Shown: piece by piece, positions 29,139 to 46,139 of the stretch
Position numbering within the stretch: the first letter of the stretch is position 1
Layout of the letters: every line of letters starts with the position of its first letter
Source of the DNA: a virus
Length of the DNA: 64,000 bases
IMG/VR virus record: IMGVR_UViG_3300042453_003033
Location: 1 to 64,000 of that record
Strand: one strand, 5' to 3'
The notes under the pieces: generated by a model
Told to the model about the DNA's origin: nothing
Database searches by the model: none
Seen by the model: only the letters and a program-made list of their open reading frames with translations
Position numbers and translations under genes: made by a program

Positions 29139-29162
29139 ACGGGACCATTGGTCCCGTTTTTA
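29139..29162 (+). terminator. Rho-independent terminator
   Basis: CGGGACC (29140-29146), loop ATT, GGTCCCG (29150-29156), then a run of five T residues, with an additional A-T pair at the base. A strong terminator after the glycosyltransferase gene. Confidence 0.93.
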
Positions 29163-29170
29163 TTTGTACA

Positions 29171-29178
29171 GATAAATA
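29171..29178 (+). promoter_or_regulatory. Candidate late promoter box GATAAATA
   Basis: GATAAATA between the terminator at 29139 and the ATG at 29202, ending 23 bp before the start codon. No -35 box is present. Confidence 0.62.
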
Positions 29179-29201
29179 TAATATTAACAATTAATTTATC
29201 T

Positions 29202-30302
29202 ATGTATGCATATGAGCTTTATGAGCAAATTAAGCCACAAATAGTTGTGACTTACCCTGGTAGATTTCAACCATTTCATCAAGGCCATGCCGGTGTATTT
29301 GAAATACTGCAAAAAAGATTCGGCAGTGAAAATGTCTATATTTTAACTAGCAACGATACCAGCAGTGCAAAGAGTCCATTTAGCTTCAGTGACAAATATC
29401 AATTAATGACAGCGGCTGGTGTGCCTGGTGATAGAATTATTGAAACAAACAAGATGTATGAACTGCCAGCAGATTTTGATCGAAAAAATACTATCTTTAT
29501 AACAGTTGTTGGTGGACCAGATGCCGATCGATTAAATCCTGATAGCTATACTAAACGCGATCAAAAAGATGCAGATGGCAATGTAATAAAGCCTGCAGGC
29601 AGTCCTAGTTACTACCAAACTTTTAAAGAAAAAGAACAACCTGTTACGGCTGATAAACATGGTTATGTTATAGTAATTCCAGAATTACAAAAAAGAATTA
29701 CGATTGGTGGTGAATCATACGATGTTAGTCATGGCACAGATGCAAGAAATTTGTGGAATAAAATTCGTAATAAACCAGAGTTAAGAAAAGAGTTTCTAAC
29801 AAAGATGTATAAACGTCCTCATATGGAATTAGGTAACATTTTTGATAAGATTCAACAAACAACATCGGAAGATATTGCTGGCGTAAGTAATGATACTGCA
29901 AGTCCAATTAGCGGAAAAATTTACGAAGATATAGATACGATTGATAATCTAAAACAATCAATTAGAAAATTCATACCTATCGCAATGCGTGTGTTAGATA
30001 TTTCCAATTTGCCTAAAATAAAATTTAAGCTAAAAGTAGAAACTGGCGATGGTGTTCAATCTAGTTTTGGTCAGTTTATTCCAAGAAAGAATACCATATT
30101 AGTTGGTTGTTCAAACAGACATCCAGTAGATATACTTAGAACTTTAGCACATGAACTAGTTCACTATAAACAACACTTAGATAAAGAGCTAGACGCACAA
30201 TCTGGCAATACTGGTAGTGACGAAGAAAACGATGCAAATGCTATGGCAGGAGTTATAATGCGATATTATAATAAACAGAACCCAGCAGCAATTAACGATT
30301 AA
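29202..30302 (+). CDS. Nucleotidyltransferase / metallopeptidase-like fusion
   Basis: 366 residues. N-terminal nucleotidyltransferase domain with VVTYPGRFQPFHQGHAGV (HxGH motif) and SPFSFSDKYQLMTAAG, similar to NMN or pantetheine-phosphate adenylyltransferase folds. The C-terminal 100 residues contain TLAHELVHYKQH, a zinc metallopeptidase-type HExxH. The start at 29202 is preferred because the upstream ATG at 29148 lies inside a terminator hairpin. Candidate late box before it. Joining these two folds suggests a virion or late protein acting on NAD-like or protein substrates; inference. Confidence 0.75.
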   Translation: MYAYELYEQIKPQIVVTYPGRFQPFHQGHAGVFEILQKRFGSENVYILTSNDTSSAKSPFSFSDKYQLMTAAGVPGDRIIETNKMYELPADFDRKNTIFITVVGGPDADRLNPDSYTKRDQKDADGNVIKPAGSPSYYQTFKEKEQPVTADKHGYVIVIPELQKRITIGGESYDVSHGTDARNLWNKIRNKPELRKEFLTKMYKRPHMELGNIFDKIQQTTSEDIAGVSNDTASPISGKIYEDIDTIDNLKQSIRKFIPIAMRVLDISNLPKIKFKLKVETGDGVQSSFGQFIPRKNTILVGCSNRHPVDILRTLAHELVHYKQHLDKELDAQSGNTGSDEENDANAMAGVIMRYYNKQNPAAIND

Positions 30303-30331: not shown

Positions 30332-33300
30332 ATGAATAGCAAACAATTTTTAAAAGAGGGTTTTATCGAGGACGCTCACGAAGCACATATGGATCATGAG
30401 GTTCAAATGGCACGTGTAGATTGTTATTACGCCGCCGAACATGCAATAGTTTTGCATAAATTACTACGTAACATATCTGAAGAGCAAGGCCTAGAAGGTT
30501 GGGTTGCTTCAAAAATTACATTAGCAAATGACTATTTAAAATCAGTTAGAGAACATCTTGAATATCAAATGATGAACACAGATGCTGATGAGGAAGATTT
30601 TCTTCCTCTAGCAGAAGGATTAACTTCCGTAAAAAAAAAGTTAAGTGAGGCAGCAGACAGCAAAGATATTCAAGAATTTGAACGTGGCCCATGGTATATC
30701 ATAGTCAAGGGTGAAGTAGTTCCTGAAGACGATGGCAGCCCAAGAAAATTTAATTGGTTAAATGCTGCTAAAGTGTTCTTTAGAAAAATGTTGGACGATG
30801 ATCCAACCACAGCAGCACAATTAAAAAGTGAATATGACAACGCTACTGATAAAAAGTCAGTAGTTTACTATAGTAAAAAACTCCCATCTGTATCATCAGA
30901 TAATTCTTCTCTAGAAGAATCAGAAAAAAGACCTGGTCTGTGGGCTAATATAAGAGCAAAGCGTGAACGTATAAAAGCCGGTAGTGGTGAACGTATGCGC
31001 AAACCAGGTAGTAAAGGTGCACCTACCAATAAAGACTTAAAGAGCATTCGTGCTAGTTCAGAGTCGATGCATGAAGATGGATTAAACTTAGATCAACAAA
31101 AATCAGATTTTAAAAACCCACTAAATTTGAATCTTGGTTCTGTTCGAGGTTTGCCTATTAATGCTGGTATTCAATCTACTCAAACTCCGCAATCATATTC
31201 AAATCGTCCTGGCGCTACTGGTATGGGATTGCAACCATCGTTAAGTATTGGTAATCCAGAGAGTGGTCCATTTGCTCAAATTAGTAAGCAAGGTGGAATG
31301 ATAGGTTATAAAAAGACATTTGAAGGTTTGGGACCAGAACAAAAACGTGTTGGTCAACTTGGTCCAACTGAAAATGTTAAGAAAAATAGTGGTGCCAGAG
31401 GTAAACTAGTTGGTGCCAATGAAAGTGTAGAGCAAGGTGTGGCGGAAGGCTCTGATAGCCTTAGAGGAACCAACGAACCAAAGAAAAAAGATGCATGGGG
31501 TGAGGGTTATTGGGTAGGACATAGACGGGAAGATAGAGATTGCCCATATCCACCTGGTTCATTTGACGCAGAAATGTGGGAACTTGGTTATCACGAAGGT
31601 AACAAAGATAGAAAAAATGAAATGACTGGTCGTGTGGCGGAAGGCAAGTGGTCGCACAATGCTATCACAGGACAGAAACTTGACCCAAGAACAGGTGAGA
31701 TTCTACCAGTTAAAGAAAAGCCATTAACAATGAAGCAAATGTTTGCACCGAAGGCACAACCTAAACTAACATTGGATGATGTGTGGCGTAAAGTAGAGAA
31801 TGTAGTATCCCAAATCTATCCAGACGGTGATCCAAACGATTACATGGCTCCATGGTTAGAAAAGCATGGCATTAGAGATTTCAAGATCGGTGAAATATTA
31901 GACCGTGCCGCAAAGAAGAATGGCTACAAAGATATGTATGATTATTGGAATAGCATGGGCGAGCAAGGTGTGGCGGAAGGCTCGGAAGATTTAGTTCAGA
32001 TTGAATACTGGAAACAAGATTCAATAGAAGCAGGTAGATGGGTTAAAACACAACCAATGCCAAGAGAAGTCGCAGAAGAACTACTACATTCACATCCAGG
32101 TGCCTTTTCAAGAGTTGAGATTGTTGATGTAAAGCAAGGTGTGGCGGAAGATATTGCTAGCACAAGACGAGAAGTAAATCTCAAGAAGAAAATAGACAAA
32201 GGTATCGCTACTCCTGAACAGAAAAAAGAATATCAAGAACTAAAAGCAAAGAATATGGGACGAAAACTTGATAAAAAGCAAGGTGTGGCGGAAGGCTATA
32301 AAGAGCCTACTACTGCTGCCGGACATGCTAAAATGGCAGCTAAGATTAAGAAAATGTTAGACGACACATTGGCAGACAGAGGCGACAGGCACGGTAATCC
32401 AGATCCACAACGACTAGCCAGTGCATATGAATATCACACGCAAAAAGCTAAAGAGAAATCGCAAGGTGTGGCGGAAGGCTCATTAAAAGAAGACGAATAC
32501 GATAAGTATGAAACTGGTAAAATGGGCCAGGAAGAAGCAGTTACTGCTATGTTTACAAGACTTGCCCGTCAAGGCATTGATCCTATCGATATGATTGCAA
32601 ACAGATTCGGTTGGAGCACATACGAACTTGACGATTTGGCACAGCAGCAAGGTTTTAAAAATACCGCAGAATGGTTGAATAGTTTTGATCAAGGTGTGGC
32701 GGAAGGCTGGAAAGAAAAAGCAGCAGGCGCCGCATTAGCAGGAGCAATGGCTGCTAGTCCAACACATGCAGGCTTTGGAGGTGAGTTAGCAGGTGCCGTA
32801 GCACAAGGTCTGGGCCGTGGTGTTGTATCTGGGGCAATTGGCCCAAAAGTGTTTGAGGAAAGAAATAAACGAGATTTAGAGTTTGCCGAACAGATTCCAG
32901 ACGAGGCCGATAAAGCAAGATATCTAAAAGCAGTTAAAAAAATCATGCACTCTAGAAATATGTCACTAGGTAGTAATGCTATGATGGGTGCAAATGCTGT
33001 GGATGAAATAGTCTTTAAGAAATTTAAGAAAAAATTGTCCGAAAAATACAATATACCATTGACGCAGGTAAAAGAACAAGGTGTGGCGGAAGGCTCAAAT
33101 GATTTATATCAAAAAGCCATTCGCAAGTATGCCCAACAAGTAGCAAATGATTATCTAAACGGCGGAAACGAATATCTTTATGGTGCCAACAAGTTTGATG
33201 CTGAAATGTTCGGTGTAAGCCAAGAAAAAGCAAATAAAGACTTTAAGACATGGTTTACTATGATTGTACGTTCTCAAGCAGTAAGACCACGACGAGGTGT

Positions 33301-34336
33301 GGCGGAAGGCTCAGAGTCTAAAATTTCTAAGTGTGCTTCTTTAGCGGCAAAGTATTTTAATAGTGAAGGTCTTCAAAGACAATATGATATTGACGAGTAT
33401 ATTAAAAACAACGCAGGGAATGATCCAATTGTCAATAAATGTGCTTCTTTAGCGGCAAAGTATTTTAATAGTGAAGGTCTTCAAAGACAATATGATATTG
33501 ACGAGTATATTAAAGCAAATGCCAAGCAAGGTGTGGCGGAAGGCTATTCACTAAAGAAAACTAATGTTGAAAAAACATTTCATCCAGGTGACCCAGAGGA
33601 TTTCGGCAGTGTTGATATGACACAAAAAGATACAGATTACGAAATTATTAATAATAAAACAGGTCAAGTAGTAGGTACTGCAAGTTGGACTACTAATGAT
33701 TATTTTGGACCAGGGGCAATAAAGATTACCATGAAAAATGGTGCTACACGTTATCTTGATATTAAGAATAGTGACAAGGGTAATCCACAAAGTGCCTTCA
33801 ATCGTTTTGTAAAAGATCCAAGTACTTCTAAAAAATATAAAGAGCAAGGTGTGGCGGCAGGCTATGTCAACGATGCAAGTGAAGGTACAAAATTCATGAT
33901 AGTTTATAACAAACATCATCCTAATCCAGCGGCTCATGGTAAGCCTGTTACCGGCGATGGAAAGCCATGGATAATAACTGCCACTGATAGGAGAGCAGCA
34001 TTAGACAAAGCGCATGAATATTTTGTACGATCACAAACTGTATCGTCATTTCGTGGGTATGTAGATGCAGTTCCTGTTGAGCAAGATGTGGCTGAAGGCT
34101 TCAGTGATGTTGTTAAGGGCATCAAGCGTAAAGTAGCAGGTAAGGACAATCCCAAAGATGTAGAACATACTTATGCTCGTATTGCCCGTAGAGATATAGA
34201 AGATGCTAACAAACTTAATAATCAAGCAGCATATGATGCTAGAGATAAATCAACAAAGCGTTGGAAAAAGGTCAATAAAGTTGTCAACAAGCAAGGTGCG
34301 GCGGGAAGCAAAGATAAATCTGAAAAGAAATCTTGA
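30332..34336 (+). CDS. Giant modular protein with QGVAEG boundaries
   Basis: 1334 residues. The first 110 residues form a conserved domain (HMDHEVQMARVDCYYAAEHA; EEQGLEGWVASKITLA) seen in aquatic phage proteins. After residue 365 the protein becomes a chain of short, mostly unrelated modules of about 45-130 residues. Most junctions carry QGVAEG encoded by nearly the same DNA each time. Some modules contain recognisable folds only vaguely (a hydrophobic Ala/Gly segment at 32720-32850; small alpha/beta pieces). Probably a virion or injected protein; function unknown. Candidate late promoter upstream. Confidence 0.75.
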   Translation: MNSKQFLKEGFIEDAHEAHMDHEVQMARVDCYYAAEHAIVLHKLLRNISEEQGLEGWVASKITLANDYLKSVREHLEYQMMNTDADEEDFLPLAEGLTSVKKKLSEAADSKDIQEFERGPWYIIVKGEVVPEDDGSPRKFNWLNAAKVFFRKMLDDDPTTAAQLKSEYDNATDKKSVVYYSKKLPSVSSDNSSLEESEKRPGLWANIRAKRERIKAGSGERMRKPGSKGAPTNKDLKSIRASSESMHEDGLNLDQQKSDFKNPLNLNLGSVRGLPINAGIQSTQTPQSYSNRPGATGMGLQPSLSIGNPESGPFAQISKQGGMIGYKKTFEGLGPEQKRVGQLGPTENVKKNSGARGKLVGANESVEQGVAEGSDSLRGTNEPKKKDAWGEGYWVGHRREDRDCPYPPGSFDAEMWELGYHEGNKDRKNEMTGRVAEGKWSHNAITGQKLDPRTGEILPVKEKPLTMKQMFAPKAQPKLTLDDVWRKVENVVSQIYPDGDPNDYMAPWLEKHGIRDFKIGEILDRAAKKNGYKDMYDYWNSMGEQGVAEGSEDLVQIEYWKQDSIEAGRWVKTQPMPREVAEELLHSHPGAFSRVEIVDVKQGVAEDIASTRREVNLKKKIDKGIATPEQKKEYQELKAKNMGRKLDKKQGVAEGYKEPTTAAGHAKMAAKIKKMLDDTLADRGDRHGNPDPQRLASAYEYHTQKAKEKSQGVAEGSLKEDEYDKYETGKMGQEEAVTAMFTRLARQGIDPIDMIANRFGWSTYELDDLAQQQGFKNTAEWLNSFDQGVAEGWKEKAAGAALAGAMAASPTHAGFGGELAGAVAQGLGRGVVSGAIGPKVFEERNKRDLEFAEQIPDEADKARYLKAVKKIMHSRNMSLGSNAMMGANAVDEIVFKKFKKKLSEKYNIPLTQVKEQGVAEGSNDLYQKAIRKYAQQVANDYLNGGNEYLYGANKFDAEMFGVSQEKANKDFKTWFTMIVRSQAVRPRRGVAEGSESKISKCASLAAKYFNSEGLQRQYDIDEYIKNNAGNDPIVNKCASLAAKYFNSEGLQRQYDIDEYIKANAKQGVAEGYSLKKTNVEKTFHPGDPEDFGSVDMTQKDTDYEIINNKTGQVVGTASWTTNDYFGPGAIKITMKNGATRYLDIKNSDKGNPQSAFNRFVKDPSTSKKYKEQGVAAGYVNDASEGTKFMIVYNKHHPNPAAHGKPVTGDGKPWIITATDRRAALDKAHEYFVRSQTVSSFRGYVDAVPVEQDVAEGFSDVVKGIKRKVAGKDNPKDVEHTYARIARRDIEDANKLNNQAAYDARDKSTKRWKKVNKVVNKQGAAGSKDKSEKKS
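31430..34309 (+). repeat. Dispersed 18-bp repeat CAAGGTGTGGCGGAAGGC
   Basis: Copies begin at 31433, 31964, 32279, 32462, 32690, 33077 and 33527 (exact), and at 32135, 33293, 33845, 34082 and 34292 (variant); a shorter piece lies near 31632. All full copies are in frame and read Gln-Gly-Val-Ala-Glu-Gly. Codons are identical in the exact copies, though synonymous changes would be silent. The repeat is 12/18 GC in AT-rich surroundings. The 31430 and 31961 copies extend to GAGC...GCTC ends. Distances are irregular (144-531 bp). Confidence 0.95.
33332..33514 (+). repeat. 75-bp perfect tandem duplication
   Basis: The 75 bp at 33332-33406 recur without change at 33440-33514, a period of 108 bp (36 residues). 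They encode CASLAAKYFNSEGLQRQYDI followed by DEYIK. The module lies between two QGVAEG repeats. Identity at silent sites implies recent duplication. Confidence 0.93.
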
Positions 34337-34346
34337 AAGAACAATC

Positions 34347-35276
34347 ATGAGATTAAATGAGTTTGCAAGCGGAGGCGGCGATGATCGCAACGATTTACAA
34401 CTTTACCTGAATGTTGCTTTAAAGTTAAAGATGAAGAAATTCAAGCCGGAAACGATGCGCGCCATAATTACAAAGAAGATGTCAGAGTTAGTCAATGTCG
34501 TTGATGCTGATAAAGTAGATTGGGCATATCAAATGCTTCGTAAAGAACAGAGACTATCAAATATGTTAGATCAACACGGTGTGACAGAAGGTGAAATCGT
34601 AAAGGGTACGTTTGGACAAAAATTTAAACCCAATTTGGGCAGAACAGTACAAACATCTCCTTATGAACACAGACCAGATATAGATATACCACAGTATGAC
34701 CCTGTAAGAAAAACCAACTGGATCAAAGGAATCAGTAAAGAAAACAATAAAGAACCTTATGATCATTTTGAACTAGATCAAACTAAACCAAATATTGCTC
34801 ATATAATAGGTGTTACTAAAGATGGGCTGCAAGTAAAAATCAGCACATCGAATCTAAAACTAGCTGAAATTCTTGTTGATCTTTACAATCGTGGTGGCTT
34901 TACTGATGCCGATATAGAAAAAATACCAATGAAATCTCCTGAAAGAGAAAAGCCAAAACTTAAATTAGTAAAATCAGACGACATTGAAGAAGATACTACA
35001 TCACCATCAGAAAAAGTAGAGGCATATGGCTATGTATATAACAATCGTGATCAACGTATAGTGTGGCGTAAAATATTTTCAAGTGAAGATGAAGCAAATC
35101 GCTGGGCAGATCGTCGCAATGCCACAGTGTTAGGAATTAAACCGTTAAAACCATCAGATAAAATATCTGAAACCAGTGCAGGCAGTGTAGCAACTGTCGT
35201 GAATCCAAAAATGAAAGATCGTTCAAAAGTAGGCACACTATTTGGTGGAACATATAAACAGCGGAAAGATAAATAA
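34347..35276 (+). CDS. Hypothetical protein with HGVTEG boundary
   Basis: 309 residues. The start at 34347 follows the giant gene by 10 bp; the frame is open upstream to 34203 but would overlap. The N-terminal 75 residues are helical (RAIITKKMSELVNVVDADKV) and end in QHGVTEG, a degenerate form of the QGVAEG boundary. The remainder has HFELDQTKPNIAHIIG and KSDDIEEDTTSPSEK, mostly polar. It belongs to the virion-like low-complexity block. Function unknown. Confidence 0.7.
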   Translation: MRLNEFASGGGDDRNDLQLYLNVALKLKMKKFKPETMRAIITKKMSELVNVVDADKVDWAYQMLRKEQRLSNMLDQHGVTEGEIVKGTFGQKFKPNLGRTVQTSPYEHRPDIDIPQYDPVRKTNWIKGISKENNKEPYDHFELDQTKPNIAHIIGVTKDGLQVKISTSNLKLAEILVDLYNRGGFTDADIEKIPMKSPEREKPKLKLVKSDDIEEDTTSPSEKVEAYGYVYNNRDQRIVWRKIFSSEDEANRWADRRNATVLGIKPLKPSDKISETSAGSVATVVNPKMKDRSKVGTLFGGTYKQRKDK

Positions 35277-37327: not shown

Positions 37328-40300
37328 ATGAATTTGTACGATTTTTTTTCTAACAATAAAAAATTAAACATTAAAGAAAATATTCCTACCGCAAATGAAG
37401 TAGAAAAACAAGTCGTTAATGAAAATTTACATAAATGGTTTAAAGAAAAATGGGTTCGTTTTGGCCCAGATGGAAAAATACGCGGTGATTGTGCTCGAGG
37501 TGATGATAGCGAAGGCAAACCAAAATGTTTACCACGTGCTAAAGCACATAGCCTAGGGAAAAAAGGTCGTGCCAGTGCTGCTGCCAGAAAACGTCGTGAG
37601 GACCCAAATCCAGAACGCAGTGGATCAGCAATAAATGTTGCAACAAAAAGTAAAAGAAAAATAGACGAACAGACTGGTAAAGCAGCATCTATCAAATCAG
37701 AAAGCATAAAATCACTAGCTGAACAAATTGGACCTAGAGGCGAGACGGTGCGATTACCACCAACTCCGGCAGATGCTAATTTTGAACGATATCTTAGCAC
37801 ATTACCAAAAGCATCTGATCCTGCGTCGGCACAATCTCAACCTCAACGTAGAGGTACAATGCCAAGGGTTGGTACAGATTTTTACTATGTGCCTGGTGCT
37901 GCACCGAACGCGAGAAGTCAAGCAGCGGCAGTTGCGTCACCTGTCTCATCACCTCAAATAGTCGGCAGCACTGGCGCAGGCGCTAGAGCAGCAAGGGCTG
38001 CGGATTCGGCAGCGGCGGCCAGAGTAACACCACCTATCAATCAACCTCCACGCAGAGTCTCACCACCTAAAGTTGATACGGATTCTTATTCTGTGCAAGA
38101 TGGTAATATCAAACCAGATGCAAGACATCAAGCAAGAATAGCATCTCAGGCTATCCAGCGAGACACAGAGGCACAAAAACAAGCTGCCAGAGAAAAAGAA
38201 TATGCCGCCTCAGTAGATAGTGCAGATGCTGAATTAGGCACTGCTATAAAAGCAAATGCACAAGCTGCCAGAGAAAAAGAATATGCTACTAGTTCAGATC
38301 AAGAAGATACTGATTTAGCTACTGCAATGAATAAAATGGCTGCCGATCTTGCAAAAACCGCGTCAACAGATGATCAATTAGCCGCTGCTGCGAATGTAGC
38401 AACAGGTGGTTATTCGGGTGGCAGAGGTCAACCTACTACAGTATCAACTCCTACTTCTTATACATTACGTCGCGGTGACACATTAAGTCAACTAGCATCA
38501 AAATTTGACACAACAACACAAGAACTGATGCGATTAAATCCAGACATAAAAGATCCAAATAAAATATATGCAGGGATGACATTAAATGTGTCGAAACCAA
38601 CAGATGCTGCTACGGGACAAACAATAGCTCCAGATCAAAGTAGTGCGGAAACACAAAGACTTGATAGACAGCCAGTAAAAATTCGAACTGCTACGGGACA
38701 AACAATAGCTCCAGATCAAAGTAGTGCGGAAACACAAAGACTTGATAGACAGCCAGTAAAAATTCGAACTGCTACTGGACAAACAATAGCTCCAGATCAA
38801 AGTAGTGCGGAAACACAAAGACTTGATAGACAGCCAGTAAAAATTATGCCTGGCACAGTAGGAACTTCTTCTGGCCAACTTACAACGTTGGATGGTACAC
38901 CATGGTTCACTGGATATCCACCAGAACAAGAAATACCTGTTAGCCCACCATCCATACGTCCCGGAGAAAAAAGAGCGGATCGTGCTGGAGGATCAGCAGA
39001 CTTAGCGGGTGATATTGGACGCGGAGAATTTTCTGCTGCTGGTAAACCATCCGTCAGACCAGATAGAGTAGTCCCACCTAGCAGTGCTGGTTCAGCATCA
39101 TCAACTCAAACAGGATCAGGATTAAGACTGCCGTCTCAATCAGGATCAGGATTAAGACTACCACCAGCTCAAACAGGTGCAGCAAAACCACCCGCTGCTG
39201 AACCAACGTCACCGCCTAAACCAGGAGCAGCAAAACCACCCGCTGCTGAACCAACGACACCAGTTAAACCAGGAGCAACAAAACCACCCGCTGCTGAACC
39301 AACGACACCAGTTAAACCAGGAACAACAAAACCACCCGCTGCTGAACCAACGACACCAGTTAAACCAGGAGCAACAACAGATGATCAAGCTAAATTAAGA
39401 CAAAATTTGACACCCGGGCAACTAAAATATGCCGGTGATGCTGATTTAAGTAGACCAGCTACAGGCACAAATCGTGTTATCGAGAAAATGCCATTACCAG
39501 ATTCAGATAGAATTGTAAAAGCATTCTCGACTGCGGAAGCTTCAAAAAATCCAAATTTGGCATATGGTGACGCCATAGATAAAAATGGTAACATTGTTAG
39601 TACTGTAAGAGCCAATAGAGGAATTAAAATTGGTCGAAGATTACTAACTGCTGAACAGTGGAGTGAAAAAGAGTTAGGTCAAGCTAAAAAGCTATCTAAT
39701 ATGACAATATCTGAAGTTCAGCAATTTCAAAAATACAGAGAAGCCAATCATAAGAATGCTAATGCTGTAGGTGCTTATCAATTTGTTGGTGACACTCTTG
39801 ATAATCTTGTAAAGAAACTAGGTCTTGATCCAAAAACAACAATATTTAATCAAAAAACTCAAAATTTATTGCTTAGCGAACTTACAAAAGATAATGCTAA
39901 CACTTTAAAAAGAAATGGTATTTTACCAGATATAGTAAATATTTACATGGCACATGCTGTTGGAGGTCGTGGTGCTGTAGGTATATATGACGATTTACGC
40001 AAAGATTCAAATAAAACGGTTATTGATTCAATAATGGACACGTGGGAACAAAATAATCCAAGAGATGCTGGCAATCCAAGAAAAGTGGCAATGCAGAGAA
40101 AAATTTTATTAGCTGGTAATCCTCACATGACCGATATGAGAATTGGTGAGTACTATGACTATCTTAAAAACGCCACTGAAGGTAAAACAAGAAATTCAGC
40201 ATATACACAAAGATCAAACGCCGCACAGCAAAGTCTCGGATTACGTGACGAATCAGGTCGACCAAATGAACAAGAGATTAGGAAATATCAAAAAAGTAAT

Positions 40301-41389
40301 GGCCTAAGACAGACTGGCGAAATTAATTGGCAAACAATTCATCATGTTAATAAAAATGTAGCAAGACAACCCGTAAGAGAAAATTTTGAATTTAGTCCTG
40401 AACAAGAAAAATGGCTAGGGAACGCAAATCGTCAAGATCCATACATAATAGCCAGAATGCCTGGACCTAAGCCACCAGCCGAATATTTTACAAACCCAGA
40501 AGATCAACGTGTTGCACAACAAATAGTTAGATCACAAGATTTAGCAAACAAATGGCAAGAATTTAGACAAGGTGGTTCACTGGCAAGCAAAGCAGTTAGT
40601 AGAATACCAGGTGTAAGTCAAGCAGCAAACGTTGTAGATATCGGAGCAAATCTAGCTAAAGGTGATTTGCCTGCCGCTGGTAGACAAGCGTTAGGCATGA
40701 TACCTGCCGCTAGACCAATTAATTTAGCATTACAAGCAGGTGATGTCGCAAGTAATCTTCAACAAGGTAATTTAGCTGCCGGAGCAAAAGGTGCATTAGG
40801 TATTGCAGCAGGTACCGGAAGTGAAACAGCTGGTCGAGCACTTAAAGGATGGAATTTATTTAATAGACTACAAAAAACTACACAGTCATTAGCTGACAAG
40901 CAAAATCAACCAACAATGGAAAACACTTGCCCACATTGCGGTGGTTTATCAGTAGATGATGAAATGTTAGCTGAGAAGAAAGATGCTTGCTATCACAAGG
41001 TTAAAAGTAGATATAAAGTATGGCCCAGCGCATATGCCAGTGGTGCTTTAGTAAAATGTCGTAAAAAAGGCGCTAAAAACTGGGGTAAATCAAAAGCCAA
41101 TGAAGATAGCAATCTATACTTCAATATATCAGGCACCGACAAGAAAACTTTAATATCCGAGTTTAAACTAAATCGCAATAATAAAGGATGGTATTTAAAA
41201 GAAGATTCACCATCATCTGTTAAACTAGATGCAATACGCGCATTTGGTATGCCTTTAAGCGAAGAAGAATTAAACCCAACGGCATATAGCGGCACTGCTG
41301 CAACAATAGGTGTAGATAATCCTAGAAGTCCAGTTGGTTCGGTTCCAAAAAGCCAAAGAATAAATAGTAAACAAAAGGGTAAAAAATAA
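37328..41389 (+). CDS. Giant LysM / lysozyme-like virion protein
   Basis: 1353 residues. N-terminal basic Cys-containing motif (KWVRFGPDGKIRGDCARGDD). A LysM domain (YTLRRGDTLSQLASKFD, about 378-425). Tandem repeats of 27 and 16 residues. A lysozyme/transglycosylase-like domain (about 700-960) with STAEASKNPNLAYGDAI, NAVGAYQFVGDTL and YMAHAVGG. Then a peptidoglycan-binding-like helix pair (EIRKYQKSNGLRQTGEINW), WLGNANRQDPYIIARM, a hydrophobic segment, and a CPHCGG / ACYHKVKSRYKVWPSAYASG tail. Probably a tail-associated cell-wall hydrolase; catalytic residues not proven. Confidence 0.75.
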   Translation: MNLYDFFSNNKKLNIKENIPTANEVEKQVVNENLHKWFKEKWVRFGPDGKIRGDCARGDDSEGKPKCLPRAKAHSLGKKGRASAAARKRREDPNPERSGSAINVATKSKRKIDEQTGKAASIKSESIKSLAEQIGPRGETVRLPPTPADANFERYLSTLPKASDPASAQSQPQRRGTMPRVGTDFYYVPGAAPNARSQAAAVASPVSSPQIVGSTGAGARAARAADSAAAARVTPPINQPPRRVSPPKVDTDSYSVQDGNIKPDARHQARIASQAIQRDTEAQKQAAREKEYAASVDSADAELGTAIKANAQAAREKEYATSSDQEDTDLATAMNKMAADLAKTASTDDQLAAAANVATGGYSGGRGQPTTVSTPTSYTLRRGDTLSQLASKFDTTTQELMRLNPDIKDPNKIYAGMTLNVSKPTDAATGQTIAPDQSSAETQRLDRQPVKIRTATGQTIAPDQSSAETQRLDRQPVKIRTATGQTIAPDQSSAETQRLDRQPVKIMPGTVGTSSGQLTTLDGTPWFTGYPPEQEIPVSPPSIRPGEKRADRAGGSADLAGDIGRGEFSAAGKPSVRPDRVVPPSSAGSASSTQTGSGLRLPSQSGSGLRLPPAQTGAAKPPAAEPTSPPKPGAAKPPAAEPTTPVKPGATKPPAAEPTTPVKPGTTKPPAAEPTTPVKPGATTDDQAKLRQNLTPGQLKYAGDADLSRPATGTNRVIEKMPLPDSDRIVKAFSTAEASKNPNLAYGDAIDKNGNIVSTVRANRGIKIGRRLLTAEQWSEKELGQAKKLSNMTISEVQQFQKYREANHKNANAVGAYQFVGDTLDNLVKKLGLDPKTTIFNQKTQNLLLSELTKDNANTLKRNGILPDIVNIYMAHAVGGRGAVGIYDDLRKDSNKTVIDSIMDTWEQNNPRDAGNPRKVAMQRKILLAGNPHMTDMRIGEYYDYLKNATEGKTRNSAYTQRSNAAQQSLGLRDESGRPNEQEIRKYQKSNGLRQTGEINWQTIHHVNKNVARQPVRENFEFSPEQEKWLGNANRQDPYIIARMPGPKPPAEYFTNPEDQRVAQQIVRSQDLANKWQEFRQGGSLASKAVSRIPGVSQAANVVDIGANLAKGDLPAAGRQALGMIPAARPINLALQAGDVASNLQQGNLAAGAKGALGIAAGTGSETAGRALKGWNLFNRLQKTTQSLADKQNQPTMENTCPHCGGLSVDDEMLAEKKDACYHKVKSRYKVWPSAYASGALVKCRKKGAKNWGKSKANEDSNLYFNISGTDKKTLISEFKLNRNNKGWYLKEDSPSSVKLDAIRAFGMPLSEEELNPTAYSGTAATIGVDNPRSPVGSVPKSQRINSKQKGKK
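38609..38845 (+). repeat. 81-bp tandem repeat, 2.9 copies
   Basis: Starts at 38609, 38690 and 38771, period 81 bp (27 residues), encoding ATGQTIAPDQSSAETQRLDR then QPVKIRT. The copies differ at about one base (acggga versus actgga). Located between the LysM domain and the Pro-rich repeats. Confidence 0.95.
39179..39370 (+). repeat. 48-bp tandem repeat, four copies
   Basis: Copies at 39179, 39227, 39275 and 39323 encode AAKPPAAEPTTPVKPG with few changes (first copy SPPKPG). It is a Pro/Ala-rich extended linker. An upstream 24-residue-scale repeat of SGSGLRLP occurs at about 39112-39160. Confidence 0.93.
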
Positions 41390-41823
41390 TGGACGAATTA
41401 GCAAAAGCACTGAAAATAGCATTCAGTACCGAATTTAGTTTTTATCTAAAATCTCATTACTACCATTGGAATGTAGAAGGTCCAAACTTCGCACAATATC
41501 ATAAATTGTTCAGTAAAATATATGAAGAAGTTTATGGTAGTATTGATGCATTTGCTGAAAATATAAGAAAATTAGGCAGTTACACTCCTGGTAGCTATAC
41601 AAGACTAAGTATGCTATCTCAGATAGAGGACGAACTGACCGTTCCTCCAGCACTTGATATGATCAATGATTTATTAGGTGATAGTGAAAAATGCATTAAA
41701 ATTTTCAAAATGGTATATGATTTAGCCGAACGTGAAGGCGAACATGGATTAAGTAATTTTCTAGCAGAACGCATGGATTCACATAAAAAACACAGCTGGA
41801 TGCTCAGCGCAACACTCAAATGA
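41389..41823 (+). CDS. dps: Dps-family ferritin-like protein
   Basis: 144 residues. The Dps ferroxidase pattern is intact: YYHWNVEGPNF (H26), QYHKLF (H38), then SIDAFAENIRKLG (D53, E57). Dps dodecamers oxidise and store iron and can bind DNA, limiting hydroxyl-radical damage. A TAATG overlap joins it to the giant LysM protein, so it may be expressed late and even packaged. It completes the SOD/AhpD/Dps oxidative-stress set. Confidence 0.9.
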   Translation: MDELAKALKIAFSTEFSFYLKSHYYHWNVEGPNFAQYHKLFSKIYEEVYGSIDAFAENIRKLGSYTPGSYTRLSMLSQIEDELTVPPALDMINDLLGDSEKCIKIFKMVYDLAEREGEHGLSNFLAERMDSHKKHSWMLSATLK

Positions 41824-41972
41824 ACAACAATACAACTTCTATACATGACACGTTAACATTTATAAATAATGATGAAGTCGTCACAAAAGAACTTGTGTTA
41901 GAACAAATAGAATTTACCGACAATTTAGATAGCGCAAATATAAATTATTTAACATATCTGATAGTCGGTTAA
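41820..41972 (+). CDS. Small hypothetical protein (50 aa)
   Basis: 50 residues, with its ATG overlapping the dps stop (ATGA). Sequence such as DTLTFINNDEVVTKELVLEQ is acidic and protein-like. A perfect T4 late box (TATAAATA, 41861-41868) lies inside it but 262 bp before the next gene, so it is probably coincidental. Function unknown. Confidence 0.55.
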   Translation: MNNNTTSIHDTLTFINNDEVVTKELVLEQIEFTDNLDSANINYLTYLIVG

Positions 41973-42130
41973 CAGTCTTGGCCTTAGGACCGAGTAGGTC
42001 GCCTCATACCTCAATACGCAATGAATTCGCTACTCATTCTATTCAAAATGGGGCATTTTCAAAAAATTTGATTTCCATATTCAAGCTGTATTATAATACA
42101 CAAACCACAACTTATAGGAGTTTTCATCAC
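41973..42130 (+). other. 158-bp intergenic region with hairpins and promoter
   Basis: Contains CTTGG/CCGAG around 41978-41995, the perfect hairpin AAAATG/CATTTT (42045-42059, loop GGG) and the promoter at 42068-42097. There is no T-arm consensus, so it is not a tRNA. It may hold a structured leader or small RNA; evidence is limited to visible hairpins. Confidence 0.4.
42068..42097 (+). promoter_or_regulatory. Sigma70-like promoter
   Basis: TTGATT (42068-42073) and perfect TATAAT (42092-42097), 18-bp spacer. Start near 42104; the DsbA-like ATG is at 42131 with AGGAG in between. It would drive the DsbA-like and polymerase genes. Confidence 0.75.
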
Positions 42131-42397
42131 ATGAGTGATTACAATCGTACATTTAACCACGAGGCAAAAATTAAACTAAGTCAAGTGATCAACGAGGGAA
42201 TTAAAGTTCTTCAAGAAATAGAAGACTTAAATGCTGGTCTGTCTGACACAGTTAAAGCAATCGCCGAAGAACTTGAAATTAAGCCATCTGTTCTAAAAAA
42301 AGCTATCAAGATTGCTAACAAGAGTAAGCTAGGCGAAGTCAACCGTGACATGGAAGAATTGAACACAATTCTAGAAACGGTCGGTCGTACTCTATGA
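42131..42397 (+). CDS. DsbA-like dsDNA-binding transcription regulator (T4 type)
   Basis: 88 residues, the same size as T4 DsbA (89). Segments VLQEIEDLNAGLSDTVKAIA and EELEIKPSVLKKAIKIANKS mirror the T4 protein's helical layout. T4 DsbA binds double-stranded DNA near late promoters. The ATG at 42131 follows AGGAG and lies downstream of the promoter at 42068; an ATG at 41978 in frame would lie upstream of that promoter and code atypical sequence. ATGA overlap with the polymerase gene. Confidence 0.65.
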   Translation: MSDYNRTFNHEAKIKLSQVINEGIKVLQEIEDLNAGLSDTVKAIAEELEIKPSVLKKAIKIANKSKLGEVNRDMEELNTILETVGRTL

Positions 42398-45333
42398 GTT
42401 ATATTGACGCTGTCCTTAACAAAGACCGCGATATAATTCACGTAGTTGAACGTGACGAAAATGGTGTTCGACGCTATGTTGATTACCCAACAAATTACGT
42501 GTTGTACTATGAAGATGCAAAGGGCAAATACCGTAGCGTATTTGGTGATCCTCTAAGCAAATTCAGCACCAGAAAGCATAGTGAATTTCAAAAAGAAAAA
42601 CGTATTTTATCAAATAAAAAATTGTTTGAAAGTGATGTGAACGTAGTTTTCAGATGTCTAGCGGATAACTATCTAGATCGTCCATCACCAAAACTACATA
42701 CTGCGTTTTTCGACATTGAATCTGATATGCAACCATACGCATATCCTAATTCTCATATAGTAGAAATTCAAACAAAAAATTCAAAAATTAAGAAAAAAAT
42801 AACTGTTCATGAGCTAAGTTATTTGCCTAACAAAGATGACTACTTAGTTTATAGTCAAGAAAATGATTCATGGATTAGTATCTATGGTTGTGAATATCTA
42901 AAGTTAGGACCAGGTTTTGCTCCTACTACCGATCCGTTCAATAAAGTCACAGCAATAACACTGTATCTGGATTGGCTAGAACAACTGATTACACTATGTA
43001 TACCACCAGCACATATCTCTATAGATCAGGCAACTGAACTAGTAAAAGACATTGATAATGTATTCATTTTTGACAACGAAGTTGATCTATTTGAAACATT
43101 TTTCTTACTAATTGAAGATGCTGATGTACTTACTGGCTGGAACAGTGAAATCTACGATATACCATATCTAGTAAATCGTGTCACTAAAGTAATGAGCAAA
43201 AATGATACCAGACGTTTTTGTCTGTTCGATCACTTGCCTATGCCAAAAACTATTAACAAGTTCGGCAAAATAGAAAATGTTTATGAACTAGTTGGCAGAG
43301 TTCACATGGACTATCTTGTATTGTACAAAAAATACAACTATGAACAACGTCATAGCTATAAGCTTGATTACATCGGTGAAATGGAGGTAGGCGAAAATAA
43401 AACACAATATGAAGGTACACTCGATCAATTGTATAATCGTGATTGGCGAAAATTTATAGTTTATAACCGCCAGGACACATTACTAGTATTTAAAATTCAT
43501 AATAAGCTAAAGTTCTTGGACTTAGCTAATCAACTCGCACATGAAAACACTGTACCACTAAAAAAGGTTATGGGCAGTGTTGCCATGATTGAGCAAGCTG
43601 TTGTTAATGAAGCTCATCAAAGAAATTTGATTGTTCAAAATAAACCAATTGACTATAAGGACGATGAATATGATGACGAGAATGAAGAGGAAGATATCAC
43701 AGCCGCCGGTGCCTATGTTGCTACGCCCAAAAGAGGCATGCACGAATGGATCGCGGCGTGTGATATTAACAGTCTATACCCATCAGTTATCCGCGCTCTT
43801 AACATGGCCCCAGAAACAATTATCGGACAACTTAGACAAGACTTAACAGAAAAATATATCGAGGATAAAAAAACAAAGTTAGCGCGAGAAAAGAAAAACA
43901 AAACTGCCAAAGATATCACCGGCCCAATCTTATGGGAAGGGCTATTCGGTTCATTAGAGTACACAGCAGTAATGAATCAAGAACGCGATACCATGATAAC
44001 CATAGACTGGGAGCGTGGTGGTAGTGATACGTATAGTGCCGCTGAAATATGGAAAATGATCTACGATAGTAATCAACAATGGGTATTGTCAGCAAATGGT
44101 ACTATTTTTACATACGCACAGGAAGGTGTAATTCCTGGATTGTTGTCTAGATGGTATCAAGAACGTAAACAGATTCAAGCAAAGTTAAAGAAAGCTACTA
44201 CTAAAGAAGAACAAGAATTCTTAGATAAACGCCAATTAGTTAGAAAAATTTTGCTTAATTCGGCGTACGGCGCTCTACTAAATCGTCATTGTAAATTCTA
44301 CGATTTACGCATAGGCCAAAGTGTAACGTTATCCGGTAGACAAATTGTAAAACACATGGGATCAAAATTAAACGAGTTGGTAACAGGTGAATACAGTATT
44401 ACTGGAGATGCTGTAATATACGGAGATACAGATTCCATTTACTACACCATATGGCCAATCATCAAAGAAAGTGTATTATCAAATTCCACAGAGTGGACAA
44501 AAGAAAAGGCAATCGAAATTTATGATGAATTGGCAAACGATACTAATAAAAGTTTTCCCGCATTCATGAACACAGCATTTCATTGTCCACAACGTAATGG
44601 CGAAATCATAAAAGCAGGTAGAGAACTGGTAGGTGATCGTGCTTTGTTTATTACGAAAAAACGTTATGCGGTAAACATCTATGACAAAGAAGGTAAACGT
44701 CTTGATGTAAATGGTAAACGTGGGAAAATCAAAGCTATGGGTTTGGATCTAAAACGTAGTGATACACCTAAATTCGTTCAAGAGTTTCTAATGGAAGTTC
44801 TAGAGGAAGTATTAGCTGGTAAAAATAAAGAATTCATCGTTGAAAAGATAAAAGAATTCAAAAAGAAATTATCAGACATGAACAGTTGGATGAAAGGCAG
44901 TCCAAAGTCCGTAAACAATTTAACGCTATATGCTGACAAAGCCAAGGCAAATTCTAAAAAGATGAACAAAGATTTGTTCGTTTCTGATGACAGTGATGGT
45001 GACACCAATATGCCAGGTCATGTCCGTGCTAGCTTAAATTGGAATTATTTGCGATCTATAAATAATGATAACTACAGTATGCAAATCGTGGACGGAATGC
45101 GAGTAGTTATTTGTAAACTCAAATCAAATCCATATGGTTTTACAAGTATTGCTTATCCAACAGATGAACTAAGATTGCCTCAATGGTTTTTATCTTTGCC
45201 ATTTGATGATAAAAGCATGGAAACAACTCTAGTAGATGAAAAAATTGACAACTTATTATCGGTCCTGGACTGGAATTTACGAGAGTTAACCTCAGTTGAT
45301 GAAGCTATAAGTGACCTATTTGTTTTTGAATAA
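42394..45333 (+). CDS. Family B DNA polymerase (gp43-like)
   Basis: 979 residues, longer than T4 gp43 (898). Exonuclease motifs: ExoI FFDIESD (D107, E109), ExoII GWNSEIYDIPYL (about 249) and ExoIII YNRQDTLLV (about 356). Polymerase motifs: A DINSLYPSVI (about 456), B KILLNSAYGAL (about 618) and C IYGDTDSIYYT (about 675). All catalytic acids are present, so it is proofreading and active. An extra segment of about 50 residues follows ExoI (KIKKKITVHELSYLPNKDDY onward). It is translationally coupled to the DsbA-like gene; the sliding clamp follows. Confidence 0.95.
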   Translation: MSYIDAVLNKDRDIIHVVERDENGVRRYVDYPTNYVLYYEDAKGKYRSVFGDPLSKFSTRKHSEFQKEKRILSNKKLFESDVNVVFRCLADNYLDRPSPKLHTAFFDIESDMQPYAYPNSHIVEIQTKNSKIKKKITVHELSYLPNKDDYLVYSQENDSWISIYGCEYLKLGPGFAPTTDPFNKVTAITLYLDWLEQLITLCIPPAHISIDQATELVKDIDNVFIFDNEVDLFETFFLLIEDADVLTGWNSEIYDIPYLVNRVTKVMSKNDTRRFCLFDHLPMPKTINKFGKIENVYELVGRVHMDYLVLYKKYNYEQRHSYKLDYIGEMEVGENKTQYEGTLDQLYNRDWRKFIVYNRQDTLLVFKIHNKLKFLDLANQLAHENTVPLKKVMGSVAMIEQAVVNEAHQRNLIVQNKPIDYKDDEYDDENEEEDITAAGAYVATPKRGMHEWIAACDINSLYPSVIRALNMAPETIIGQLRQDLTEKYIEDKKTKLAREKKNKTAKDITGPILWEGLFGSLEYTAVMNQERDTMITIDWERGGSDTYSAAEIWKMIYDSNQQWVLSANGTIFTYAQEGVIPGLLSRWYQERKQIQAKLKKATTKEEQEFLDKRQLVRKILLNSAYGALLNRHCKFYDLRIGQSVTLSGRQIVKHMGSKLNELVTGEYSITGDAVIYGDTDSIYYTIWPIIKESVLSNSTEWTKEKAIEIYDELANDTNKSFPAFMNTAFHCPQRNGEIIKAGRELVGDRALFITKKRYAVNIYDKEGKRLDVNGKRGKIKAMGLDLKRSDTPKFVQEFLMEVLEEVLAGKNKEFIVEKIKEFKKKLSDMNSWMKGSPKSVNNLTLYADKAKANSKKMNKDLFVSDDSDGDTNMPGHVRASLNWNYLRSINNDNYSMQIVDGMRVVICKLKSNPYGFTSIAYPTDELRLPQWFLSLPFDDKSMETTLVDEKIDNLLSVLDWNLRELTSVDEAISDLFVFE

Positions 45334-45350
45334 TTTTGTAAAAATCATTC

Positions 45351-45379
45351 TTGACAATTCAGAACTCACAGCTTAAACT
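45351..45379 (+). promoter_or_regulatory. Sigma70-like promoter
   Basis: TTGACA (45351-45356) and TAAACT (45374-45379), 17-bp spacer, between the polymerase and clamp genes. The predicted start is near 45386, so the clamp begins at the ATG at 45405. Confidence 0.75.
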
Positions 45380-45404
45380 ATCAATAATAAAAACAGGAAT
45401 ATCA

Positions 45405-46139
45405 ATGAAAGACATATTAAACGACATAATTCATCATACTTTACCTTTGGGTGGTATTGAACTAATTAAAATTGTTGGTACGGCAAACGAAACATCGTTG
45501 TCAGCCGTCACAGAAAACAAAACTGTTATCCTAAATGCAAAGTTCAAAACTCCTATACCACAGTTCAGCGGTGTGTTTGGCATGCCCTCACTTGAAAAAT
45601 TACGCACTATCCTAAGTTTTGACGACGAATATGACGGTGATGCAAAAATATCAGTTGTCTCTGAGAAGAAAGACGGTGAAGATCATCCTAGCGTGATTCA
45701 CTTCGAAAACAAGTCTGGTGATTTCGTTAACGACTATCGTCTTATGGGTAAAACTCTAGTAGAACAGAAAATCAAAAATGTAATTTTCAAGGGCGCTGCC
45801 TGGAACTTGAACTTTAAGCCAACTATCCCAGGTATTACCAGACTGAAAAAGCAGTCCAGTGTTCATAATGACGAACCTAACTTTAATGGCTTCTATGAAA
45901 ATAATGCATTAGTGATGTCGTTTGGTAATGTTTCCACTCATGCAGGTAAATTTATTTTCCAAACAGGTGTTAGTGGTTCACTGACTAAGTCCTTTCACTG
46001 GCCAGTAAAACAGTTCTTGTCTATTATGGATCTAGTTGGTGATAAACATATCTACATCAGTGATCAGGGCGTTATGCGTGTAACACTAGATAGTGGCATA
46101 GCAGAATACGAATATCTACTACCAGTTCAAAAACAATAA
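45405..46139 (+). CDS. Sliding clamp (gp45-like)
   Basis: 244 residues. Position directly after the polymerase, and segments FGMPSLEKLRTILSFDDEY, IHFENKSGDFVNDYRLMGK and WPVKQFLSIMDLVGDKHIYI, match the phage processivity clamps of aquatic T4-like phages; T4 gp45 is 228 residues. Clamps encircle DNA and in T4 also activate late transcription. The frame is open to a TTG at 45351, but that codon is the -35 box, so the ATG at 45405 is used. Confidence 0.78.
   Translation: MKDILNDIIHHTLPLGGIELIKIVGTANETSLSAVTENKTVILNAKFKTPIPQFSGVFGMPSLEKLRTILSFDDEYDGDAKISVVSEKKDGEDHPSVIHFENKSGDFVNDYRLMGKTLVEQKIKNVIFKGAAWNLNFKPTIPGITRLKKQSSVHNDEPNFNGFYENNALVMSFGNVSTHAGKFIFQTGVSGSLTKSFHWPVKQFLSIMDLVGDKHIYISDQGVMRVTLDSGIAEYEYLLPVQKQ

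Follow-up and report, generated by a model that had tools for sequence, protein, structure and literature searches.

An 18-bp coding repeat joins exchangeable small-protein modules in genes of uncultivated viruses

Hundreds of related uncultivated viruses exchange small protein modules, in the manner of cassettes, at joints formed by one 18-bp repeat. The gene described here lies in the window, a stretch of 64,000 nt from IMG/VR record IMGVR_UViG_3300042453_003033. Comparison with its relatives showed that modules between repeats are inserted, lost and permuted at the repeats, and that the repeat is conserved as DNA, synonymous codons included. But what is such a protein for, and why would its joints be kept to the letter? 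The explanation that we consider probable as a whole is a capsid-targeted polyprotein, cleaved in the prohead at its joints and shuffled by recombination through the homology of the repeats.

The array gene and its repeat

The repeat, CAAGGTGTGGCGGAAGGC, occurs in 12 copies between 31433 and 34309, all on the + strand. A search allowing up to three mismatches found seven exact and five near copies, as the earlier note had counted, where shuffled windows gave a mean of 0.01. All 12 are in frame in one ORF of 1334 aa. The irregular spacing of 144–531 nt described before stands as far as these copies go, but a 13th copy had been missed: it reads GRVAEG, is degenerate at its 5' end and splits the 531-nt interval. 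The G+C content of the repeat (12/18) against about 39–40% locally agrees with the earlier picture of a GC-rich element in AT-rich DNA, and the degenerate relative HGVTEG was confirmed in the next gene. The sequence shared at the joints is 18–22 bp long with a sharp edge at 18 bp; nothing longer is common to the copies, and no inverted repeat is present within the 18-bp joint. The layout is given below, with L numbers for the other sequences compared.

30332–34336, +: array gene P0001, predicted capsid-targeted polyprotein, 1334 aa, 13 repeat copies (ORF, translation, repeat search)
30332–30358, +: predicted capsid-targeting sequence MNSKQFLKE, predicted cut after E9 (form as in T4 IPIII, MKTYQEFIAE)
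30359–31432, +: N-terminal region, common to L037 (74%, 255 aa) and L296 (DNA ~98.5%) (sequence comparison)
31433–31450, +: repeat 1, exact; a 201-nt cassette is inserted here in L296 (repeat search, L296 comparison)
31451–31627, +: module W1, RMF-like, 59 aa (Pfam RMF E=4.1e-6, 27.2 bits, slightly below the cut-off of 27.9)
31628–31645, +: degenerate repeat GRVAEG
31646–31963, +: module W2, 106 aa; W1 and W2 travel as a single block in L296 (L296 comparison)
31964–31981, +: repeat, exact; right end of the W1–W2 block common to L296
31982–32134, +: module W3, 51 aa; absent from L296
32135–32152, +: repeat QGVAED, 2 mismatches
32153–32278, +: module W4, 42 aa; absent from L296
32279–32296, +: repeat, exact; left end of the W5–W6 block, transposed in L296
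32297–32461, +: module W5, 55 aa
32462–32479, +: repeat, exact, between W5 and W6
32480–32689, +: module W6, 70 aa
32690–32707, +: repeat, exact; right end of the W5–W6 block
32708–33076, +: module W7, 123 aa; absent from L296
33077–33094, +: repeat, exact; left end of the W8–W9 block
33095–33292, +: module W8, 66 aa; present in L159 and L084, order differs
33293–33310, +: repeat RGVAEG, 1 mismatch
33311–33526, +: module W9, 72 aa; near-exact duplication inside
33527–33544, +: repeat, exact; right end of the W8–W9 block
33545–33844, +: module W10, 100 aa; 88% identical in L159 between repeats; in L060; absent from L296
33845–33862, +: repeat QGVAAG, 1 mismatch
33863–34081, +: module W11, 73 aa
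34082–34099, +: repeat QDVAEG, 2 mismatches
34100–34291, +: module W12, 64 aa; homologues elsewhere in the arrays of L037 and L181
34292–34309, +: degenerate repeat QGAAGS; junction with L296
34347–35276, +: next gene P0002, likely start MRLNEFASG
34575–34592, +: HGVTEG, repeat relative inside P0002; also a breakpoint with L296

No relation was detected among the 12 modules of P0001. The earlier note had called them unrelated, which is right of one to another, but they are not unique, since other phages have them as cassettes too. Pfam mostly gave no match on the modules; RMF-, GNAT- and ADP-ribosyltransferase-like domains are represented among the cassettes. For the ADP-ribosyltransferase-like module, found in relatives, the best Foldseek E was 0.1, and Z scores of at least 8, over ~80–90 residues, came from VIA-align only (maximum 8.6, over ~85 residues). 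A phrog_16028 module occupies aa 200–237 of P0001, within the N-terminal region, and HExxH is confined to the neighbouring ORF and to relatives. Genes for DNA polymerase, a Dps-like protein and the sliding clamp are frequent neighbours of the arrays, and in L037 the C-terminal part of P0002 is fused to the array gene.

Module exchange and conservation of the joint DNA

The earlier note had proposed searching viral genomes and metagenomes for the 18-mer. Exact copies are present in an estimated ~690 IMG/VR stretches, while none of the GenBank phages searched has a full 18/18 match. The 26 exact matches in bacterial and archaeal genomes (257 Gb), scattered and single, are taken as chance. Large contigs hold 1–11 copies, clustered at few places. 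In every one of the 518 copies tested, taken from two samples, the repeat is inside a long ORF and is read in one sense frame, as QGVAEG. A literature search for this peptide gave no paper. A protein family with ggsrQGVAEG, in which the codons vary freely, was set apart as unrelated.

Are the modules really exchanged at the repeat? The comparison of homologues for module gain and loss, also proposed earlier, answers the question directly through breakpoints between near-identical phages, and the idea of module shuffling at the repeat holds. L296, a relative of 98–99% identity, matches the window at 98.5–99% in both flanks of the array, yet cassettes are inserted, missing and permuted, with nearly all junctions within repeats, HGVTEG of the next gene included. 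L316 differs from L007 by one additional cassette of 288 nt (90 aa plus repeat) between essentially identical flanks. Across near-identical pairs, 31 of 67 breaks fall at repeats in both members, where at most 3.5 are expected; half of the breaks are away from any recognised repeat. Of 929 interior ends of DNA matches, 233 coincide with a repeat in each of the two genes (2.6 expected), and neighbours across a repeat were unrelated in 276 of 307.

The joint is kept as DNA. An AT-rich synonymous recode of the 18-mer has 16 matches in the whole viral collection against at least 120 for the native sequence, a ground for rejecting a constraint on the peptide only. Non-exact copies use GTG in 98/112 and GCG in 94/112 cases, whereas these codons have shares of 25% and 11% in the ORFs concerned. 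Fourfold sites of the repeats differ by ~0.2 regardless of module divergence. Synonymous sites in the repeats thus fail to diverge in step with the flanking modules, and the comparison of repeat and flank favours the DNA-level constraint suggested before; freely varying codons in a fixed module order were not seen. Wobble changes do exist, mostly as transitions from a single master sequence.

Could the 18 bp be a dedicated site for a phage recombinase or a homing-type endonuclease, an intragenic analogue of the integron with the peptide secondary? Conserved wobble bases, the sharp edge at 18 bp and the clean insertion of a module with one repeat would all fit, but we think this unlikely. The inverted-repeat structure of integrase sites is absent, degenerate copies (HGVTEG too) act as junctions, and selection has kept particular positions of the peptide, namely V/M/L/I and E. 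No recombinase or integrase is among the gene families most often adjoining arrays, and a GIY-YIG gene is beside them in 9 loci only. A phage enzyme would have to recognise 18 bp that serve recombination as DNA and proteolysis through the encoded peptide, which is doubtful; if true, phages would build and trade injected-effector polyproteins through an enzyme-driven, integron-like cassette system.

Capsid targeting and predicted cleavage

What would the peptide be conserved for? An aliphatic or aromatic residue-x-E at residues 7–15, as in capsid-targeting sequences, is present in 65 of 98 array genes against 236 of 962 others. Modules that are cassettes in the arrays also exist as separate genes that begin with targeting sequences. 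When array modules are paired with such single-gene homologues, the E of the repeat falls opposite the final E of the targeting sequence in 16 of 32 pairs (not all independent). Among 114 distinct repeat peptides, V/M/L/I is kept in 112 and E in 108, and decayed repeats retain [VILM]-x-E. In the rest of the array proteins hydrophobic-x-E-G is enriched 1.72-fold, with no enrichment in other ORFs. The T4 protease gp21 cleaves after L/I-x-E (PMC9026906); the residue three before the predicted cut is V here, where gp21 prefers L/I. As the retained [VILM]-x-E is near the gp21 motif and its E is in register with that of the targeting sequences, QGVAE|G is probably a prohead-protease site. The processing peptide, one of the options raised earlier, is thereby strongly favoured on comparative grounds. 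Taken together, the sequences argue strongly that array proteins are polyproteins made up of fused internal head proteins of the T4 type; from this we infer cleavage, packaging, injection and effector roles of their modules.

An S77 protease, always together with gp23, is present in 10 of 23 array-linked contigs above 100 kb. The other 13, one of them of 343 kb, have neither, and the record of the window (68 kb, a fragment) gave no S77 protease or gp23 match. Fragmentation or divergence may perhaps account for this.

Alternatively, the peptide could remain uncut and connect the domains of an intact virion protein, as a flexible linker or an interaction motif. A low-confidence structural model does place the repeats in coil or low-confidence stretches between modules. 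From such a role one would not expect the register with the cut sites of single-gene homologues, the retention of V/M/L/I and E alone or the enrichment of hydrophobic-x-E-G elsewhere in the array proteins, and we find it improbable.

Proposed mechanism and its meaning

The capsid-targeted polyprotein would work as follows. In a phage of the T4 superfamily, the targeting sequence MNSKQFLKE would bring the precursor into the prohead core, where a prohead protease of the T4 gp21 type (S77) would cleave every QGVAE|G joint behind its E. Some twelve small internal proteins would be freed, remain with the DNA and enter the host by injection. The 18 bp coding for the joint would double as a shared stretch of homology, through which recombination linked to replication or repair could add, remove or relocate cassettes (a module and one repeat) by copying, whether the partners are co-infecting phages or different genes of a single phage. 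Since an exchange from repeat to repeat preserves both frame and cut site, the joint DNA itself would be propagated and homogenised. T4 recombination uses homologies of 2–10 bp (PMC9391042), and we infer that ordinary phage recombination performs the shuffling. Wobble bases fixed across many phages are not obviously explained by general recombination alone.

Might the identical codons instead serve translation, by pausing between domains, or control at the RNA level, with shuffling passive? Their choice is indeed far from that of the ORF, but wobble changes that are mostly transitions from one master are what descent predicts, and this reading is very unlikely. All comparisons rest on metagenome assemblies, every sequence being an assembled contig, and two window-specific junctions were sought in other contigs and not found; chimeric assembly at the repeat is nevertheless extremely improbable. 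The order of L296 recurs identically in L294, from a different sample, the form without the L316 insertion is present in three samples, assemblers usually work with k-mers longer than the repeat, and chimeras would not be expected to keep frame in every copy tested. A mobile element inserting itself into genes, also suggested earlier, would account for many near-identical copies in unrelated contexts, but is scarcely credible given the single sense frame, the few clusters per genome and the want of any longer shared stretch.

How does the proposed polyprotein compare with known systems? Integrons also have exchangeable cassettes, each with one short site, in a single orientation; however, each integron cassette has its own ORF and a structured attC, whereas the arrays form one ORF and one protein, with a joint of 18–22 bp in which no attC-like structure was found. 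The PeSLs of T4-type phages are short shared sequences that mediate module shuffling, but they are promoter/stem-loop elements between genes: a PeSL is an intergenic early promoter with a stem-loop, while all copies of the array repeat are coding, in frame and intragenic. The cyanomyoviruses S-SRM01 and P-TIM68 share module families with the arrays, in long fusion proteins encoded among the late structural genes, but their joints lack the 18-mer.

Like the arrays, IPI, IPII, IPIII and Alt of T4 have an N-terminal targeting sequence with a predicted cut after hydrophobic-x-E (PMC9026906, PMC3012670). The T4 internal proteins are likewise variable small proteins after a conserved signal, and the ADP-ribosyltransferase-fold cassette of the arrays recalls Alt. 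They are single-module genes, whereas the arrays have up to 13 modules per polypeptide, with predicted cut sites and shared joint DNA. The polyvalent proteins of phages and plasmids (2–15 domains) are thought to be delivered with the DNA and partly processed (Iyer et al. 2017, PMC5512222). They resemble the arrays in having several unrelated domains per polypeptide. They carry ADP-ribosyltransferase and metallopeptidase domains (PMC5512222), of which the former may have a counterpart in the cassette of ADP-ribosyltransferase-like fold. Their processing is attributed chiefly to the embedded metallopeptidases and they have no shared joint, in contrast to the uniform 18-bp joint and predicted head-protease site of the arrays. 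In the literature searched we found no equivalent description of module shuffling at a shared joint or of modular capsid-targeted cyanophage proteins.

T4 internal proteins act against restriction systems (PMC3012670, PMC12373910). As each joint encodes an apparent head-protease cut site, a diverse set of small proteins could reach the host from a single array gene. The same 18 bp would provide frame, cut site and homology, so that the product of an exchange is likely to be still functional. If this is true, protein maturation is coupled to recombination through one 18-bp joint, giving a concrete mechanism for a fast turnover of injected anti-host factors. The 18-mer would then mark a large reservoir of small proteins, most of them without annotation and probably injected into bacteria by aquatic T4-like phages.

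Repeat copies, their spread and their codons

The array gene of the window (ORF 30332-34336, 1334 aa) contains seven exact copies of the 18-mer CAAGGTGTGGCGGAAGGC and five with 1-3 mismatches (plus strand, 31433-34309; 0.01 expected), every one in frame; the 18-mer encodes QGVAEG, and the copies separate the modules W1 to W12. Further relatives are:
31628-31645: thirteenth repeat copy, with a degenerate start
Gene following the array gene: HGVTEG relative of the repeat
The source is a 68-kb virus record with T4-type replication genes (names assigned by reading translations), and the window's DNA polymerase has its nearest relatives in the jumbo phages Phosso (45% identity) and Atu_ph07 (41%). 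How widely is the repeat spread? The exact 18-mer occurs in at least 120 IMG/VR stretches; a longer repeat context accompanies 13 of 120 among the matches listed and is found in 75 stretches overall, from which about 690 stretches with the exact 18-mer are extrapolated. Bacterial and archaeal genomes (257 Gb) yield 26 scattered exact matches, taken as chance, and the full 18-mer gave no match among the GenBank phages searched. All copies with up to two mismatches (287/287 in a first sample, 231/231 in a second of 62 loci) lie within long ORFs, in the frame that gives QGVAEG, and 22 of 23 array-linked contigs longer than 100 kb carry 1-11 such copies, often at several genome places.

Conservation drops abruptly at the edges of the 18 bp; beyond them, RAG on the 5' side and T on the 3' side are weakly conserved. 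Of 112 non-exact copies defined by peptide, 98 use GTG for V and 94 use GCG for A, codons whose shares in the ORFs concerned are 25% and 11%; the second sample shows the same preference, and an AT-rich synonymous 18-mer has 16 matches in the entire viral collection. The difference between phages at fourfold sites ranges from 0.33 to 0.67 in homologous modules and stays at 0.17-0.25 in the flanking repeats throughout; admitting repeat copies with up to four mismatches bounds the possible divergence, but this limit alone should not give a flat curve. Because the repeats stay in this range whatever the divergence of the modules, they are constrained or homogenised, not simply diverging along with their neighbours.

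Modules are exchanged at the repeat

A direct comparison is possible with L296, a related locus from a different sample, which matches the window at 98.5% identity across 6284 nt on the upstream side and at 99.0% across 972 nt on the downstream side. The blocks W1-W2, W8-W9 and W5-W6 are common to both at 97-99.6%, with the order of W5-W6 and W8-W9 swapped; L296 lacks W3, W4, W7, W10, W11 and W12 and has four new cassettes (module plus one repeat); the cassette inserted at repeat 1 adds 201 nt (a 61-aa module and one repeat). With one exception, a block that ends near 34372, barely inside the next gene, the junctions inspected fall within repeats; the degenerate copy at 34292 and HGVTEG at 34575 are among them. 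L294, from yet another sample, has the L296 arrangement (100% over 4454 nt). Within W9, also in L296, a 79-nt stretch is duplicated near-exactly, 108 nt apart (33328-33514).

Other phages behave likewise. L316 carries a 288-nt cassette absent from L007, between essentially identical flanks, and from two further samples; L027 and L155 have flanks 97-99% identical and modules differing from repeat 1 on. Cassettes are common, repeat to repeat, to two genes of one phage (L050, 167 nt, 99.4%) and to L007 and L072 (97.8%), and L159 carries W10, W8 and W1 in reverse order (88%, 68% and 76% identity in local alignments). When the near-identical pairs are taken together, 31 of the 67 breaks coincide with a repeat in each of the two partners (at most 3.5 expected); the same holds for 233 of 929 interior ends of the DNA matches, 100 nt or longer, that array genes share (2.6 by chance). 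Repeat spacings in related phages are always multiples of 3 (median 234 nt), and module families reappear at similar length beside different neighbours, the neighbour across the repeat being unrelated in 276 of 307 comparisons.

The cassettes belong mostly to unknown families. W1 is RMF-like (E=4e-6), and other matches are to a GNAT acetyltransferase (E=4e-7), ParB-like (weak), DUF6321 and DUF5872-like domains. One ADP-ribosyltransferase-like module was modelled at a mean pLDDT of 68.5; Foldseek gave a weak match (DarT, E=0.1) and the top VIA-align rows were Tpt1/KptA and DarT (Z 7-8.6), which on this model supports a predicted ADP-ribosyltransferase-like fold, not a function. In a low-confidence model of W8-W10, the repeats fall in coil or low-confidence stretches.

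Predicted targeting sequences and cleavage

Examples of array-gene N-termini are MRAQEFITE/G, MKINEIISE/Q and MRINEILVE/QGVAEG (slashes mark predicted cuts). T4 N-termini have the same form (IPIII MKTYQEFIAE/A, Alt MELITELFDE/D; residues read from T4), their cuts marked as in the T4 literature. Hydrophobic-x-E ends at residues 7-15 in 65/98 array genes versus 236/962 other ORFs, a conservative contrast because some of the latter also resemble internal proteins; the second sample gave 26/44 array genes. The cut made by the T4 prohead protease gp21 follows L/I-x-E, and ten N-terminal residues of IPIII are enough for targeting (PMC9026906). A strict targeting-like pattern, M[KR]xx[EDQK][FLIY]xxE, opens 158 genes or gene starts of the array contigs (e.g. 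L253 2477-3088), the third residue before the predicted cut being I in 85, L in 38 and V in 25 of the 158; given this number, the array phages may, in addition to the arrays, package a very large repertoire of internal proteins from single genes.

Several cassettes also exist as single genes, and the residue past the last E of the targeting sequence then aligns with that past QGVAE:
QGVAE/AFDQPY with MRATEFITE/AFDKPY
QGVAE/DWQKVN with MRATEFITE/DWNKVN
QGVAE/EWSQKYK with MRAKEFISE/KWSKKYK
QAVAE/NFADGK with MRINELFE/NFADGK
E occupies the exact register position in 16 of 32 cassette/single-gene pairs, some of them not independent of one another. L253 has the ADP-ribosyltransferase-like module as a single gene (MRAEEFMVE/AVGGNYLYHAT), whereas in other loci it is a cassette flanked by repeats. 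The register also explains the variable final codon of the repeat, since the joint held in common stops at E. Of 114 distinct repeat peptides, 112 have V, M, L or I at the V position and 108 retain E, other positions being variable, and [VILMF]xEG is enriched 1.72-fold in the remainder of array proteins, with no enrichment in other ORFs. Of the 23 array-linked contigs longer than 100 kb, 10 encode both S77 protease and gp23; the absence of both from the other 13 may be due to fragmentation or divergence.

Recombination, gene neighbourhood and known systems

Cassette exchange could proceed by ordinary phage recombination at the 18-bp homology, for example by strand invasion and template switching. 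A dedicated enzyme would account more directly for the wobble conservation, yet we consider it unlikely; ordinary recombination is favoured because T4 already rearranges at homologies of 2-10 bp (PMC9391042) and imperfect repeats also act as junctions.

In the window, a Dps-like protein, the DNA polymerase and a sliding clamp form one neighbourhood (41389-46139); they are found at 47, 57 and 35, respectively, of some 180 array loci, so that the arrays are often located at a conserved place of one phage clade. The LysM-containing ORF (37328-41389) has tandem repeats of 81 bp x 3.0 (99% matches, 38607-38845) and 48 bp x 4.5 (39162-39377), and its N-terminus, MNLYDFFSNNKKLNIKE, also resembles a targeting sequence. 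The stretch 29148-30302 joins a cytidylyltransferase-like domain to an HExxH metallopeptidase-like region, and its product may be another capsid-targeted protein, judging from the internal start MYAYELYE.

Cultured cyanomyoviruses have some of the same modules fused among late genes, without the repeat: S-SRM01 (L242 2561-4390) and P-TIM68 (L243 2981-4264) encode long hypothetical proteins built from them, with no 18-mer, close to terminase and tail-sheath genes. In the literature searched, which covers only a minority of subscription journals, no account was found of a common DNA joint serving as both recombination junction and predicted protease site. Functionally, array proteins are closest to T4 internal proteins and polyvalent proteins (PMC5512222), and we infer that the array protein would be cleaved, packaged and injected.
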